Assembly: GCF_000381045.1 (NCBI RefSeq)
Contig: NZ_KB905734.1
Span: forward strand, 1-39,996
Direction: 5' to 3'
DNA length: 39,996 nucleotides
Origin: Thermus scotoductus DSM 8553
GTDB taxonomy: Bacteria; Deinococcota; Deinococci; Deinococcales; Thermaceae
In this document: positions 32,548 through 38,588 of the stretch, piece by piece
Layout of the letters: the number at the start of each line of letters is the position of its first letter
Position numbering within the stretch: the stretch's first letter is position 1
Notes under the pieces: model-generated
The model's input: the letters and a program-made list of their open reading frames with translations, nothing else
Told to the model about the DNA's origin: nothing
Database searches by the model: none
Position numbers and translations under genes: made by a program

Positions 32548-34032
32548 ATGCTAGCCCAGGTGCGGAGCTATACCCTCTTCGGCCTGGACGCGGTTCCCGT
32601 CACCGTGGAGGTGGATGTTAGCCCCGGGCTTCCCAGCTACGCCCTGGTGGGGCTACCGGACAAGGCGGTGGAGGAAAGCCGGGAGCGGGTCAGGGCCGCC
32701 CTCAAGAACTCGGGCTTCCCCTACCCCCAGGCCCGGGTGGTGGTGAACCTGGCCCCGGCGGAACTCCGTAAGGAAGGAAGCCACTTTGACCTGCCCATCG
32801 CCTTGGGGCTTCTGGCCGCCCAAGGGGTGGTTCCCTTGGAGGCCCTTGCGGGCCTAGCCGTGGCCGGGGAGCTGGGCCTGGATGGCGCCTTGCGCCCGGT
32901 ACCCGGGGCGGTGAACCTGGCTTTGGGGGCCTTGGGCGAAGGGAAAAAGCTCCTCCTGCCCCTGGAAAGCGCCAAGGAGGCCGCCTTGGTGGAGGGGGTG
33001 GAGGTCTACGGGGCGGAAAGCCTCCTGCAGGCGGTGGCCTACCTGAGGGGAGAAGAGGAGCCCAGAAGGGTGGAACCCGACGATCCCGTGGCCGCCCTGG
33101 AGGCTTTGGACCTCCGGGACGTGAAGGGCCAGGCCAAGGCCAAAAGGGCCCTGGAGATCGCCGCCGCTGGTTACCACCACCTCCTTATGGTGGGAAGCCC
33201 GGGCTCGGGAAAGACCATGCTGGCCAGGCGCCTTCCCTTTCTGCTTCCCCCTCTGAGCCAGGAGGCCGCCCTCGAGGTAAGCCGCATCCACTCCGCCGCC
33301 GGGCAGATCCTTAAAGGCCTGGTGCGCACGCCCCCCTTCCGCGCCCCCCACCACACGGTGAGCTACGCGGGCCTCATCGGGGGCGGGGCCATCCCCAAGC
33401 CGGGGGAGGTTTCCCTAGCCCACCGGGGGGTGCTTTTCCTGGACGAGTTCCCCGAGTTTTCCCGGGATGCCCTGGAGGCCCTCCGCCAGCCCCTCGAGGA
33501 CGGGGTGGTGACCGTCTCCCGGGCCAGGGCCAGCCTCACCTTCCCCGCCCGCTTCCTCCTGGTGGCGGCCATGAACCCCTGCCCCTGCGGCTGGTACGGG
33601 GACCCGGAAAGGGCCTGCACCTGCACCCCGGCAAGCCGCCAGCGCTACGTGGGGAAGATCTCCGGGCCCCTCCTGGACCGGTTTGACCTGGTGGTGGAGG
33701 TGCCCCGCTTAACCCCAGCCGAGCTCGCCCGCGCCCCCGAAGGGGAAGGCACCGAGGCTGTGCGGGAAAGGGTCCTAAGGGCCCGGGAGAGGATGCTCGC
33801 CCGGCAGGGCAGGCCCAACGGGGAGCTTGCGGGAAAGGCCCTGAGGGAGCACGTGCGCTTAACCTCGGGGGCGGAAAACCTCCTCCAGGCGGCGGCCAAG
33901 CGGATGCTCCTTTCCGCCAGGAGCTACGACCGCCTCCTCCGGGTAGCCCGCACCATCGCCGACCTGCAGGGAGCGGAGAGCGTGGAGGAAAACCACGTGG
34001 CCGAGGCCTTGGCCTACCGCAAGACTCTTTAA
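32548..34032 (+). CDS. comM: YifB/ComM family Mg-chelatase-like AAA+ ATPase
   Basis: 494 residues. N-terminal Lon-protease-like ChlI domain ([31 protein letters not shown]); AAA+ core with Walker A GSPGSGKT (~218-225) and Walker [11 protein letters not shown]; the zinc-finger-like [10 protein letters not shown] with two further Cys (CTCTP) and the sensor region [16 protein letters not shown]-terminal Mg-chelatase domain. In other bacteria ComM is a helicase promoting branch migration during natural transformation, which fits the high competence of Thermus. Its stop overlaps the convergent mgsA by 4 bases. Confidence 0.93.
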
Positions 34033-34406
34033 CCCACCTGGGCAGCTAGCCAGGGAACAAGGGCCTCCGCCGCCTCGAGGTTGGTGGCCAAGGGCACCCC
34101 GTGCACGTTGCACACCCGCATGAGGGCCTGCACGTCGGGCTCGTGGGGCTTGGGGGTGAGGGGATCCTGGAAGAAGAGCACGCAAAGTACCTTTCCCTCA
34201 GCCACCCTGGACCCGATCTGCATATCCCCTCCCAGGGGACCGGAAAGAACCCGCTCCACCTCGAGGCCGGTGGCCTCCTGGATGCGTTTCCCCGTGGTGC
34301 CCGTGGCCAGGAGGGGGAAGCGGGAAAGAAGCTCCCGGTGCCGTTGGCAAAAGGCCACCATATCGTCCTTCTTGGCATCGTGGGCAATGAGGGCCAAGAC
34401 CTTCAT
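34029..34406 (-). CDS. mgsA: Methylglyoxal synthase
   Basis: 125 residues. Converts dihydroxyacetone phosphate to methylglyoxal and phosphate. Conserved [31 protein letters not shown] and [19 protein letters not shown] (catalytic Asp in GGDMQIG), then [32 protein letters not shown]. Full length. Leaderless start: -10 TACAAT is 6 bases before the ATG. Confidence 0.96.
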
Positions 34407-34412
34407 GGGGCC

Positions 34413-34422
34413 ATTGTATGCT
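34413..34422. promoter_or_regulatory. Overlapping divergent -10 boxes for mgsA (-) and the MazG-like gene (+)
   Basis: Minus -10 TACAAT covers 34413-34418 and plus -10 TATGCT covers 34417-34422, so they share two bases. Start codons lie 6 and 7 bases away. Simultaneous occupancy by two polymerases is physically unlikely. Confidence 0.55.
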
Positions 34423-34429
34423 CCTTTCC

Positions 34430-34756
34430 ATGGAAACCCTCACCTTAAAGGAAGCCCAGAGGCAGGTGGACGCCTGGATCAGCCAGTTCCAGGAGGGCTA
34501 TTTCCCGCCTCTTCTCATGCTGGCTCGCCTGACGGAGGAGCTAGGGGAGGTGGCCCGGGTCCTGGCCCACCGCCATGGGAAGACGCCCAAGCCAGGGGAG
34601 GAGGAAGGGGATCTGGCCATGGAGCTCGCCGACCTCCTCTTCGTCCTCATCTCCCTGGCCAACCGGGAGGGGATCGATCTGGAGGAAGCCTTCCTCAAGG
34701 CCATGGCCAAGTACCGGGACCGGGACGGGGAGCGCTGGACCCGGAAAGGAGGCTAG
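34430..34756 (+). CDS. MazG-like nucleotide pyrophosphohydrolase
   Basis: 108 residues from ATG 34430, chosen because the -10 TATGCT ends 7 bases before it; the in-frame ATG at 34418 overlaps the -10. Single MazG domain: [17 protein letters not shown] (ExxE), then [20 protein letters not shown] (ExxD), the metal-binding EExxE...ExxD pattern of all-alpha NTP pyrophosphatases. It probably hydrolyses (d)NTPs or related nucleotides. The broken ABC gene starts one base after its stop. Confidence 0.88.
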
Positions 34757-34757
34757 G

Positions 34758-34899
34758 ATGGAGCGCCCCTTCCTGGAAGCCCAGGGCCTGCACAAGCGCT
34801 TCGGGGCCCTCGAGGCCGTGAAAAAGGTCCACCTTACCCTACGACCTGGCGAGATCCTGGCCTTCCTGGGGAAAAACGGCGCGGGCAAAAGCACCACGG
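34758..34899 (+). pseudogene. ABC transporter ATPase gene, truncated after Walker A by a TnpB element
   Basis: An SD (AGGAGG) and ATG open a normal ABC ATPase: [40 protein letters not shown] with Walker [10 protein letters not shown]. The frame then runs into the end of the TnpB element at about 34899 and stops soon after. Q-loop, signature and Walker B are missing, and nothing resembling them is seen between 36121 and 36470. The exact family is unclear; the segment resembles importer ATPases for sugars or branched-chain amino acids. Almost certainly non-functional. Confidence 0.85.
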
Positions 34900-36030
34900 T
34901 CATCTACCTCGGACTGAAGTCCGAGGCTTGCAGGTGGCACGATAGCCATGCATGGCATCTCGTACCCCCGCGTTCGGCTGGATGACGGCAGCCCGGCTTG
35001 CAATATTGCAAGCCGCGACGTAGTCCGCAGCCCCAGAGTAGCCGCAGACCACACAGCGAAAGAGTGCCTGCGTTGGACGGTTCGCCTTCTCGGTATGTCC
35101 GCAGGCTGGACATTGCCGAGAAGTGTTCGCTGGGTCAACCCAAACCAAAGCTACTCCGCTCCGTTCAGCTTTGTACCGCAGTTTTTGGCCCAGGTCATGG
35201 AACGCCCAGCTATGCAGCGTAGCCCTCTGGGGCTTGCGAAGCCGTACCCGCTCGCGGATGCCCCGGAGGTCTTCCAGGGCGATGCCGCGCCCGGTGCGTT
35301 GAGCCTTGGCTACGATGCGTTTGCTGATGCGGTGGTTGAGGTCGTTGGCAAAGCGTTTCTCTTTGCCCGAGAGCTTTTTCAAAAGACGCTTGGCCGACTT
35401 GGTGCCTTTCTTCTGCAACTTCCTCCTGAGCCTTCGGTAGCGGTGTCTGACCGAGTTGAGGTGCTTGCCCGAGTAGGCCTCCCCGTCCGAATCGGTGGCG
35501 ATGTTGACGATGCCGAGGTCAACCCCGAGAAAGCCGTTTGGGGCCATGGCGGGCGGGTCGTCGTACTCGCACCACAGGTGGACGTACCAGGAGTCCCGCC
35601 CCCTGACCAGAGTCCCGCCCTGGATGCTTTTGGCGGTTCGCAGCAGGTGGCGCTGATACCCGGCGATGCGCATGGGCACCCTCGCCCGCCCATCCACGGT
35701 GGAGAGGCTGACGGTCTCGGTGTCCACGTTGACCGACAAGATGCGCTGGTCGTAGTCCACCGAGGTGGCCTTGAAACCGCCTGCCTTATGACCTTTGCGC
35801 TTGCCCACGCGGGCAATAACTCGCACCGCCAGGTTGGCGCTGAGACCGAAGCGTTCCCGAAGTTCCCGGTAGACCAGTCTTTGCAGGGCGAACTTGTTCC
35901 AAGCGTTCTCCTGACGCGCCACCTGCAAGGCGTAGTTACAAGCGTTGGCAAACTGTTCCACCGTGCGGGAAAGCTTCTCGGCTGTACTCGCATCGGGTAT
36001 CAGCTTGCACTTGACGGACAGGAGGGACAT
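34900..36030 (-). CDS. tnpB: TnpB RNA-guided nuclease (IS605-type)
   Basis: 376 residues, intact. RuvC-I Asp171 in [17 protein letters not shown], RuvC-II Glu253 in [14 protein letters not shown], RuvC-III Asp336 in [10 protein letters not shown]. The zinc ribbon is Cys307/Cys310 (CPAC) and Cys326/Cys329 (CVVC). N-terminal [29 protein letters not shown] is the HTH/WED start. TnpB proteins are omega-RNA-guided dsDNA nucleases. The guide scaffold normally overlaps the gene's 3' end, where a hairpin lies inside the last codons here. All catalytic residues are present, so activity is plausible. Confidence 0.93.
34907..34926. repeat. Right-end hairpin of the tnpB element
   Basis: CCTCGGAC-TGAA-GTCCGAGG, perfect 8-bp stem, located within the last codons of tnpB. 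It would be part of both the element end and the omega-RNA 3' region. Confidence 0.75.
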
Positions 36031-36095
36031 GCCTTGACTGGTTATACCACAAAGTCGTCGGCCATGTACCGGGCTTCGCCCGGCTTCCGCTTCCT

Positions 36096-36115
36096 CCCCG
36101 CATTGAAATGCGGGG
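36096..36115. repeat. Left-end hairpin of the tnpB element
   Basis: CCCCGCAT-TGAA-ATGCGGGG, perfect 8-bp stem with the same loop as the right end but a different stem sequence. It lies 66 bases upstream of tnpB. A further GC-rich hairpin (CCGGGC-TTC-GCCCGG, 36069-36083) lies between it and the gene. Confidence 0.75.
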
Positions 36116-36121
36116 CATCTG

Positions 36122-36457
36122 CGAAAGGGGTTCTGTGACAGTACTCCACGCGGTCCCGGAAAAGGTCAGCGAACCAGGCCTTCTCCCCTACCCTTTACCC
36201 GGAGCAGTAAGGGCACCTACAGGAGGCCCTCGGGCCCTCAAAGGCCATGATCCCGCTTCAGCTGGCAGAGGTAGGGCACCCTTTGGATTTCCCCAGGCAC
36301 CCCGTTCCCTAGCAAACCCCACTTTACTCCACTCACTAGGCCCGATGGCAGCTATTCCGCCACCAGGCATGGGAGTGGGGTCAAGGGCGGAGCCGATCAC
36401 GATCCATGGGCCATGATCGACCGTTACCTAGAGGGCAGTTCTGGTTGGAAAACGGTC
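36122..36457. other. Gene-free stretch between the tnpB element and the Argonaute gene
   Basis: No convincing coding frame on either strand; short open frames here have no recognisable motif. The missing part of the ABC gene is not here. Two similar segments containing AGGGCAC (near 36208 and 36274) and the inverted repeat at 36400-36419 are the only structure I see. It may be debris left by a deletion or insertion. Confidence 0.5.
36400..36419. promoter_or_regulatory. Inverted repeat upstream of the Argonaute promoter
   Basis: CGATC(C)ATGG-G-CCATGATCG: 9 bp paired with a single bulged C, ending 38 bases before the -10. It could be an activator or repressor site. Confidence 0.35.
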
Positions 36458-36463
36458 TATAAT
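36458..36463 (+). promoter_or_regulatory. Leaderless -10 box of the Argonaute gene
   Basis: Consensus TATAAT ending 7 bases before the ATG at 36471. No clear -35, and no SD. Confidence 0.6.
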
Positions 36464-36470
36464 TGCCTTG

Positions 36471-38588
36471 ATGCAGGGAATGCAAGTTCGTCTTAACCGG
36501 TTTATCCTGCGGTCCTTGCAGGAGGAAGAGCTACGGCCAGGCTTTTGGGAGGTGCGCTGGGATCCCCTACCTTCCCGGCAGGAAAACCTGTTCCAGCTTT
36601 TGGGGAAAGCGGCCAACCGGGTGGGCGGTGTCGCCACCCCATGGCAGTCCGGCTTGGTGGCTTGGACCGCACCTAGAATCCAAGAAGGAGAAGTAAGGGG
36701 CCTGTCCCAGGCCTATCGTTTCACCCTCCGCGACGGTGGGGCACTTCTCCTGGACCCCGCTAGGGTCCAAGAGCGCGAGGTCCTCTCCCGTCTGGCCCAG
36801 AAGAAACTGGAGGCGGGACTTAAGCAAGTGTATGGGCAAAGCCGCCGCTACCAAGTGGAGGGAAACCTAATCCTGGGTGGAGAAATCCGTTCGGGAAACG
36901 GCTGGCGCATCCGAAAGGGATCCCGTCTCCGGGCCCGGGTGGACCACACGGGCCAGCTGGTCCTGGAGGTGGAGATCGTGCACCGGATCCTCCCTACCCT
37001 GACCCTGGAGGCCTGGCTGCAGGGGTTTCCCGAGCCCCGGCGGGTCCGTAACACCTACGAGAACCCACCCGGCAGGCGGCAGACCTGGCGCTTTTTGAGG
37101 CTTGAACCCGAACTCAAGCCCAGGGAGGTAGACCTCGGGGGGGTGAGCCTCTTCGACTACCACGCTGGCAAGGGCAGGCTCTCGAGCGAGGAACAAGCGG
37201 GCCGGGTGGTGCGGGTGGCCGACGACAGCGGCGCGGAATTCTTCCACCTTACGGGGCTCCTCGAGCCTGTGCTGACCCTAGAGGACCTGGTCGAACTGGG
37301 CCTCGAGGCCGAGGCTGCCCTTGCCCTCCAGATCGGCCCCGAAGAGCGGTTCTCCCAGGCCCAAAAGACGGCCCGGGGCATTGCCGAAAGGATCTTTGGA
37401 GTACCGCGGGCCGAGCCTGTAGTGGCCCAGGCCTACCTGCTGCCCAAGCCCCAGCTCAAGGCCGGCCGGGGGCAACGGATTGGCAAGCCCGCAGACGCTC
37501 TCCGCAAGGGAGCCCTTAAGGCGCAGGACGCCACGGTGGGCCTCCTTGTGGTGGAGGGGAAGCCCGAGTGGCCCCAAGCCCTGAGGAAGTCCCTTCAGGA
37601 CATGGCCCGGGCCAGCGGGGTTAGGCTCAGGTTGGCGGATCCCATCGCGGTGGCCCGTGGGGACCTGCGCGGCCTGGATTTGGCCAGCTCCCTCGACCAA
37701 CTGGCCCAGCAGGAGGTGGCTGCCCTGCTGGTACAAACCCCACCCCTCACCTGGGAGGAACGCAACCGGCTCAAGCGGGCCTCCCTCCAACGCACCCTTC
37801 CCAGCCAGTTCTTTAACCCGCCCCTGGCCGAGCACAAGCTGGACAACATCCTCCTGGGCCTGGCCAGCAAGCTGGGGTGGCGGATGGTGGGGCTAGAGGG
37901 CGAATACCCGGCCGAGGTAGCGGTGGGGTTTGACGCGGGCGTGGACGGCTCCCGAAGCCTCCGCTACGGCGGGGCAGCCTGTGCGGTGACCGCGGACGGG
38001 GGGCTCCTCTCCTGGATCCTGCCCGAGGCCCAGAGGGGTGAGAGGATCCACGAGGATGTGGTCTGGGGCATGGTTCAGGAGGTCCTGCTCCGCTTCCGAA
38101 GGCTCGCAGGCCGCTGGCCCAGGCATGTGCTCCTCCTGCGGGACGGCAAGACCCAAAGGCAGGAGTTCACCCTGGCCCTCGAGGAGCTGGCCAGGAAGGA
38201 GATCGGCTACGACCTGGTCTCCGTGAGGAAAAGCAGCGGGGGACGTGTCTACCCGGTGGAGGGGGGCAGGCTGAGGGATGGGCTCTACGTACCCCTGCCC
38301 GAGGAGGAGGACAAAGTCTCCTTCCTTCTCCTCACCGCCTACCCGGGTGAGGGCAGGATGAAGGGCACCCCCCGCCCCCTCAAGGTGGTGCACGAGGAAG
38401 GGCCCACGCCCGTGGAGGAGCTGGCCCGGCAGATCTACCACCTCTCGCGCCTCTACCCCCCAAGCGGCTACCGCTTCCCCAGCCTCCCGGCCCCCCTGCA
38501 CCTGGCGGACCGGCTGGTGCGCGAAGTGGGCAGGGTTGGGCTCAGTTCCCTGCACGGCTTGGACCGGGAAAAGCTTTTCTTCGTCTAG
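36471..38588 (+). CDS. ago: Prokaryotic Argonaute, long catalytic type (TtAgo orthologue)
   Basis: 705 residues from ATG 36471, chosen by the -10 position; a TTG one codon upstream is the alternative. The order is N, L1, PAZ, L2, MID, PIWI. It aligns by eye along its whole length with T. thermophilus Argonaute (e.g. LSLLDYHASKGRL versus VSLFDYHAGKGRL; identical LHLADRLV and EKLFFV end). The PIWI tetrad is complete: Asp488 (GFDAG), Glu524 (GERI), Asp558 (LLLRDG), Asp680 (LADR). TtAgo uses 5'-phosphorylated DNA guides to cut DNA, acting against plasmids and in decatenating chromosomes. No helicase, nuclease or TIR/Sir2 partner is adjacent. Confidence 0.97.
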   Translation: MQGMQVRLNRFILRSLQEEELRPGFWEVRWDPLPSRQENLFQLLGKAANRVGGVATPWQSGLVAWTAPRIQEGEVRGLSQAYRFTLRDGGALLLDPARVQEREVLSRLAQKKLEAGLKQVYGQSRRYQVEGNLILGGEIRSGNGWRIRKGSRLRARVDHTGQLVLEVEIVHRILPTLTLEAWLQGFPEPRRVRNTYENPPGRRQTWRFLRLEPELKPREVDLGGVSLFDYHAGKGRLSSEEQAGRVVRVADDSGAEFFHLTGLLEPVLTLEDLVELGLEAEAALALQIGPEERFSQAQKTARGIAERIFGVPRAEPVVAQAYLLPKPQLKAGRGQRIGKPADALRKGALKAQDATVGLLVVEGKPEWPQALRKSLQDMARASGVRLRLADPIAVARGDLRGLDLASSLDQLAQQEVAALLVQTPPLTWEERNRLKRASLQRTLPSQFFNPPLAEHKLDNILLGLASKLGWRMVGLEGEYPAEVAVGFDAGVDGSRSLRYGGAACAVTADGGLLSWILPEAQRGERIHEDVVWGMVQEVLLRFRRLAGRWPRHVLLLRDGKTQRQEFTLALEELARKEIGYDLVSVRKSSGGRVYPVEGGRLRDGLYVPLPEEEDKVSFLLLTAYPGEGRMKGTPRPLKVVHEEGPTPVEELARQIYHLSRLYPPSGYRFPSLPAPLHLADRLVREVGRVGLSSLHGLDREKLFFV

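Follow-up and report, generated by a model that had tools for sequence, protein, structure and literature searches.

Only 23 bp separate mgsA from a short MazG-like gene that is transcribed away from it in Thermus scotoductus DSM 8553, and two predicted promoter elements have to fit into this space. The locus raises the question of what kind of promoter can serve two genes in so few bases, and whether the layout ties methylglyoxal production to nucleotide sanitation. We analysed it in a stretch of 39,996 nucleotides (contig NZ_KB905734.1 of assembly GCF_000381045.1, positions 1 to 39,996), hereafter the window, and in the corresponding loci of relatives.

Anatomy of the mgsA-mazG intergenic region

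The sequence of 34404-34432 reads CAT ggggccATTGTATGCTcctttcc ATG, and the two divergent genes start at 34406 (mgsA, minus strand) and 34430 (MazG-like gene, plus strand), leaving a gap of 23 bp at 34407-34429. The original prediction had placed overlapping divergent -10 boxes in this 23-base intergenic region, with two bases in common and both start codons within 7 bases of them. All three points are confirmed by the sequence: the two predicted boxes have the self-complementary TA of 34417-34418 in common, and the start codons lie 6 nt (mgsA) and 7 nt (mazG) away. The features of the locus are listed below.

34029..34406, minus strand: mgsA, methylglyoxal synthase, 125 aa (TIGR00160; nearest solved proteins 1wo8, 2x8w and 2xw6)
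34413..34418, minus strand: predicted mgsA -10 box TACAAT, 6 nt from the ATG (sequence)
34417..34422, plus strand: predicted -10 box of the plus-strand gene, TATGCT, 7 nt from the ATG (sequence)
34413..34422, both strands: putative bidirectional promoter core ATTGTANGCT (conservation in Thermus)
34430..34756, plus strand: short MazG-like (YpjD-type) gene, 108 aa, predicted to be leaderless in the window's clade (PF03819, 2gta, no Shine-Dalgarno (SD) word, -10 at 7 nt)

By a rough estimate, the four fixed bases of ANNNTANNNT would be found at set spacers with a chance of about 1 in 1000 at the local base composition. A conventional -35/-10 scan of 33000-36500 returned 0 promoters (0.3 expected), as expected of -10-only promoters, and by eye neither side has a TTGACA-like -35 hexamer at a suitable distance (34394-34399 and 34436-34441). 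A second in-frame ATG at 34418, within the -10, occurs in all 7 genomes of the window's group; since the matching ATG is missing from all 8 other genomes in which mazG starts at the promoter, 34430 is the likelier start of mazG. We also considered a minus-strand minicistron seen by eye, consisting of an ATG, two codons and a TGA that overlaps the mgsA ATG, and rejected it as a consequence of ACAAT beside a G-rich spacer. At the other end of mgsA, a comM-like gene (Mg-chelatase family) converges with it, and the stop codons of the two overlap in TTAA at 34029-34032. This overlap and the 23-bp gap at the 5′ end leave mgsA with hardly any intergenic space on either side.

The identity of mgsA is given by a match of 177 bits to TIGR00160, an NCBIfam equivalog, above the cut-off of 146.9. 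The plus-strand gene has a MazG domain (Pfam PF03819, 53.8 bits, above the gathering cut-off of 22) and does not reach the cut-offs for MazG proper, with 19.2 of 148.3 bits for TIGR00444 and 25 of 208 bits for NF007113; it encodes a short MazG-like protein, not MazG itself, and is called mazG here for brevity. Its nearest solved protein is 2gta, titled 'hypothetical protein ypjD' (residues 3-106 aligned, E 1e-30). In B. subtilis, too, ypjD presumably lies near mgsA.

Just 3′ of mazG, at 34758, starts an ABC transporter ATP-binding gene (identity read from the sequence) that is cut at ~34900. Similarity to relatives ends there as well, at an element with a TnpB gene on the minus strand (34900-36030; NCBIfam guided_TnpB, 194.8 bits). 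By comparison with eight loci of relatives, the remainder of the cut gene is not seen further along the window. Beyond the TnpB element lies a gene for an Argonaute of 706 aa (36468-38588), a full-length relative of T. thermophilus Argonaute (E 1.4e-175).

Resemblance to leaderless and to bidirectional promoters

Leaderless genes are frequent in Deinococcus-Thermus, where on average ~30% of ORFs have TANNNT ~6-7 nt 5′ of the start codon (PMC12340547). According to reporter assays in D. radiodurans and to RNA-seq that also covered T. thermophilus, TANNNT is probably a -10 element that yields leaderless RNA and for which a -35 is dispensable (PMC12340547). We observe the corresponding peak in an 800-kb sample of a close relative assembled as one contig (G010), with 90 and 49 of 813 called genes having TANNNT at 6 and 7 nt, and these are the two distances found for mgsA and mazG, respectively, in the window. 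The mazG start of the window also lacks an SD word, and its duplex energy with the anti-SD is +0.8 kcal/mol. By eye, the mgsA strand has a single AAGGAG, which is found 14 nt from the ATG on the far side of the -10 and is conserved in only 5 of the 27 Thermus genomes that we compared. The locus has TANNNT at 6-7 nt, the lack of an SD ahead of mazG and the phylum in common with the genes bearing the leaderless '-10 motif' in Zhong et al. 2025 (PMC12340547) and Zheng et al. 2011 (PMC3160421). Unlike the genes described there, its motifs interlock and would serve two divergent genes, an arrangement that the accessible parts of those two papers do not mention.

Opposite-strand -10 elements that overlap and have key bases in common are the hallmark of the bidirectional promoters described by Warman, Grainger and colleagues (PMC12825309, PMC10268837), and the locus has such an overlap of 2 bp, which is found in 26 of the 27 Thermus genomes with the window included. 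From the motif itself it can be deduced that overlapping divergent TANNNT pairs may share 2, 4 or 5 bases and never 1, 3 or 6, and that the 2-bp form is the one in which the TA of both boxes is shared. In the available portions of the E. coli work, distances between RNA starts of 18, 10 and 23 bp are common and 7-25 bp is the definition (PMC12825309, PMC10268837); for comparison, the distance between the start codons is 24 positions in the window and 23 in those 19 Thermus genomes whose gap is 22 bp. Two differences from the E. coli promoters stand out. The RNA starts of the locus, which are predicted rather than mapped, coincide with the start codons, so that both RNAs are predicted from the sequence to be leaderless, and no -35 is evident at the locus. 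In sum, the locus looks like two leaderless -10 motifs placed back to back. Judging from literature listings, no publication evidently covers leaderless and bidirectional or divergent promoters in combination, and none was found that maps a transcript start at the mgsA/mazG locus.

Conservation of the core

We compared 27 Thermus genomes (G000-G026, the window being G000; G032 was counted apart). Both mgsA and the MazG-like gene are present in all of them, within ~1.1 kb of each other. The core with its 2-bp overlap is found in 26 of the 27. TACAAT lies at 6 nt of mgsA in 26 genomes and is replaced by TAAGAT in G004, and the plus box TANGCT occurs in all 27, overlapping the mgsA -10 in 26; in the exception, again G004, both motifs are present 3 bp apart. 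The distance between the mgsA start and the next start codon is 22 bp in 19 genomes, 23 bp in 7 (the window's group) and 28 bp in 1 (G004). The original prediction had named conservation of the 23-base spacing as a check, and this conservation is supported, with 22-23 bp in 26/27. In the 26 genomes other than G004, 9 of 9 fixed core positions are invariant, compared with 2 of 12 spacer positions and 16 of the 60 third codon positions in mgsA; when G004 is added, the figures are 5/9, 2/12 and 15/60. With all but one of the 27 Thermus genomes having the core, it is not a product of chance.

Outside Thermus we tabled eight loci, omitting G039, in which the stretch cuts mgsA. The motifs overlap by 4 bp in G028 and by 2 bp in G032, and are both present 6 bp apart in G043, G047 and G060 and 17 bp apart in G051. 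The mgsA motif is present in G030 and G033, with no plus-strand motif by the pattern used. As for mgsA beside mazG outside Deinococcota, none of the nine loci L042-L050 has mgsA in the DNA examined, whose flanks are of unequal length, and among the twelve order- and family-level loci L051-L062 six (L057-L062) have no mgsA. L040 is a Thermus-like fragment in a bin labelled Bipolaricaulota and comes without upstream DNA.

The gene behind the plus arm and the start of mazG

The gene that follows the plus arm differs among the 27 Thermus genomes: it is mazG in 15, including the window, an M42-type peptidase gene in 9, and something else in 3. The nine peptidase genomes have the order mgsA, M42 peptidase, mazG, and mazG lies further on in all 12 genomes where it does not adjoin the core. 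The assignment to the M42 family rests on Pfam PF05343 (273.7 bits for the peptidase of G018), and none of the 18 Thermus genomes without a peptidase gene here has a peptidase match at E <= 0.001. We refer to a mazG directly behind the core as captured.

Captured and non-captured mazG genes differ in the sequence ahead of their start codons, which were picked by alignment with a script that could move the start by one or two codons to reach the nearest start codon. A -10 motif lies at 6-7 nt in 15/15 captured genes vs 0/12 of the others (5-8 nt checked). Mean anti-SD pairing is -12.7 kcal/mol in the nine genomes with the peptidase, -11.7 kcal/mol in the three others and -1.1 kcal/mol in the 15 captured cases, with ranges of -9.3 to -15.1 kcal/mol for all 12 non-captured genes and +0.8 to -5.2 kcal/mol for captured ones, the strongest captured value being that of G004. 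A listed SD word precedes 9 of the 12 non-captured genes and none of the captured; the remaining three (G003, G020 and G023) have no listed word, yet pair at -12.5, -9.3 and -14.0 kcal/mol. Judged by these upstream sequences, mazG appears to have changed from an SD-led to a leaderless gene. Zheng et al. argued that operon-distal genes usually need an SD, whereas the first gene may be leaderless (PMC3160421), and the Thermus mgsA-mazG loci would provide a concrete series of the kind that this argument, as given in the accessible part of the paper, envisages.

It is unlikely, in our assessment, that only the TACAAT arm of mgsA works, with TANGCT a by-product of symmetry and mazG expressed in some other way. 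The mgsA -10 is indeed the closer of the two to TATAAT, and bacterial -10 elements are near-symmetric (PMC10268837), which could produce an idle opposite motif. Against this, the GCT of the plus box is not part of the mgsA -10 and shows no variation among the 26 overlapping Thermus loci, next to variable spacers; a start codon follows 6-7 nt 3′ of the plus box in 26/26; and captured mazG genes are without SD-like pairing.

Probable loss of the peptidase gene

Traces of a former peptidase gene are visible in G024, where 102 bp lie between the core and mazG and the first 28 nt match the peptidase start (27/28, E 3e-9). The intervening sequences of G002 (141 bp) and G021 (144 bp) do not resemble the peptidase significantly (best E 0.24), and a former peptidase in these two is only assumed. 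Short open frames run from the plus arm in these three loci (L017, L026 and L027), of 30 codons in G024, 46 in G021 and 45 in G002. The 30-codon frame of G024 begins like the peptidase and ends just 5′ of the SD and mazG; the short frames could be either relics or small leaderless cistrons ahead of mazG. A further clue comes from G006, whose 22-bp gap is identical letter for letter to the gap before the peptidase in G018 and G009. In these last two genomes the start codons of the peptidase and of mazG both lie within CCATGGA, an arrangement suggesting that the DNA between them was deleted by way of short repeats located at these starts.

G028, which is sister to the Thermus rows, and five genomes from another family (G039, G043, G047, G051 and G060) likewise have the order mgsA, peptidase, mazG, making loss the simpler direction. 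It is quite unlikely that mazG next to mgsA is ancestral and that the peptidase gene was inserted later in some Thermus. Such an insertion would agree with G030 and G033 (same family), where mazG is beside mgsA without the peptidase at gaps of 52 and 59 and which do not favour loss, and the trees do not fix the direction; it fits poorly with the shared gene order of the six genomes just named and with a relic in G024 that begins like the peptidase. The promoter and mgsA look like the constant part of the locus, with mazG as a later tenant. In three genomes of another family (G054, G056 and G058; loci L058, L059 and L061) the peptidase gene is directly 5′ of mazG and no mgsA match was found in the genome; the two genes thus stay together without mgsA.

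We mapped the presence of the peptidase onto trees. On an rpoB tree with outgroups (33 rows, with G032 counted as peptidase-bearing) the label needs 8 changes, 5 of them forced by well-supported branches, and on an rpoB tree of Thermus and G028 (27 rows) it needs 6, of which 3 are forced; G025, whose rpoB is in pieces, was left out of both. A tree of mgsA and mazG together (30 rows) needs only 3 changes, 2 of them forced, among the rows counted, and places the peptidase-less G002, G004, G006, G021 and G024 in no group. The label is barely more clustered than when shuffled on both rpoB trees (60 and 68 of 500 shuffles as low), which together with the 3 changes of the mgsA and mazG tree makes the number and direction of changes unsure. 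Several losses of the peptidase gene are likely from these trees, which do not settle their number or the root. G014 has a 22-bp gap as in the brockianus group and is placed elsewhere in the rpoB tree, and because of this disagreement a transfer of the locus is possible.

A separate case is G032, which is labelled another genus and has an rpoB outside Thermus. Its mgsA-peptidase-mazG locus (L014) shares 95.7% identity over 3.3 kb with the one in Thermus G023 and lies on the same contig as rpoB, and a second mgsA is found elsewhere (L013 and L206 are also concerned). Either the transfer was recent or the assembly is mixed; the locus was probably acquired by transfer from Thermus.

Overlapping pairs at other divergent genes

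Overlapping divergent TANNNT motifs at both starts were found in 6 of 81 divergent gene pairs in the 800-kb G010 sample, whose stretches exclude the mgsA locus. Five of these have the 2-bp overlap and starts 22-23 apart (script's count), and one overlaps by 5 bp. In 400 kb of G002 there were 2 of 43, one with a 2-bp overlap and one with another geometry, and in 400 kb of G042, from another family, none of 44 divergent pairs overlapped with TANNNT. Among eight permuted motifs run as a control, T...AT gave 1/81 and 1/43 and the other seven gave 0. A variant run with spacers of 5-7 and a slightly different gene call returned 7 of 80 pairs. These counts are approximate: a simple script assigned the gene starts, with candidate starts accepted within 60 nt.

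Polymerase competition and the proposed switch

The original prediction had held that only one direction can fire at a time, and that this gives a built-in switch between methylglyoxal production and nucleotide sanitation. The first statement stands in part. The geometry makes exclusion reasonable, and it is plausible that two polymerases are unable to occupy the locus together; however, 5/5 bidirectional promoters of E. coli were too weakly active at the basal level to compete markedly, and competition emerged once one side was strengthened or activated (PMC12825309, available portion). The second statement is not supported, since the core is not directly before mazG in 12/27 Thermus genomes, 9 of which have the peptidase and 3 leftover or unrecognised sequence in its place; within the window's group such a switch is still conceivable. 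A dedicated switch, in which polymerase competition would make mgsA and mazG mutually exclusive and have their two activities alternate, is very unlikely: the geometry, the lowering of the other direction at strengthened or activated E. coli promoters, and an mgsA-mazG distance of at most ~1.1 kb in 27/27 Thermus genomes speak for it, but the sequence behind the plus arm, the lack of marked basal competition in E. coli, and the overlapping pairs at other divergent genes, by which the layout needs no special reason here, speak against it. As far as the window is concerned, the finding is rather ordinary, namely a conserved promoter with no specific methylglyoxal/nucleotide switch indicated. The locus has the look of a two-way promoter that is elegant but of an ordinary kind, and not of a metabolic switch built for the purpose.

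Discussion

Our preferred explanation, which we consider probable, is that the 23 bp are a bidirectional leaderless promoter of mgsA whose other arm first belonged to the peptidase gene and was then captured by mazG. Opposite -10 motifs would interlock on a self-complementary TA, and RNA polymerase would load in either orientation and start RNA at or next to each start codon, so that neither the mgsA message nor that of the plus-strand gene would have a leader. The promoter would belong to the 5′ end of mgsA and be kept with it across Thermus. Its plus arm probably first served the M42 peptidase gene, followed by a mazG translated from a Shine-Dalgarno. The peptidase gene would then have been lost, probably several times, and its loss in the window's lineage and others would have put the mazG ATG at the position of the peptidase ATG. 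By this step mazG would have taken over the promoter and become leaderless. The anatomy, the conservation, the gene orders and the presence or absence of SD-like pairing are the sequence basis of this account; from them we infer the use of both -10 boxes, the leaderless RNAs, the direction and route of the deletions and any interference between the two directions.

More tentatively, and with slightly less than even confidence, we propose that an interlocked leaderless promoter of 22-23 bp may act as a portable module that reaches from start codon to start codon. Repeated deletions between short repeats at the start codons could then swap the gene of one arm while leaving the promoter and mgsA undisturbed, turning an SD-translated operon gene into a leaderless one in a single step. 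Such interlocked promoters may mark a regular class of divergent gene pair in Thermus, each of them open to competition between polymerase orientations when one side is strongly used.

The locus would offer a minimal case for polymerase competition at a promoter without a leader on either side. Beyond this, the Thermus loci with the peptidase present, reduced to a relic, or gone form a natural series: the promoter stays the same, whereas the gene that follows it differs and so, apparently, does the way in which translation of that gene begins. This series makes the proposed link between operon position and SD-led or leaderless translation (Zheng et al. 2011, PMC3160421) testable with few strains.
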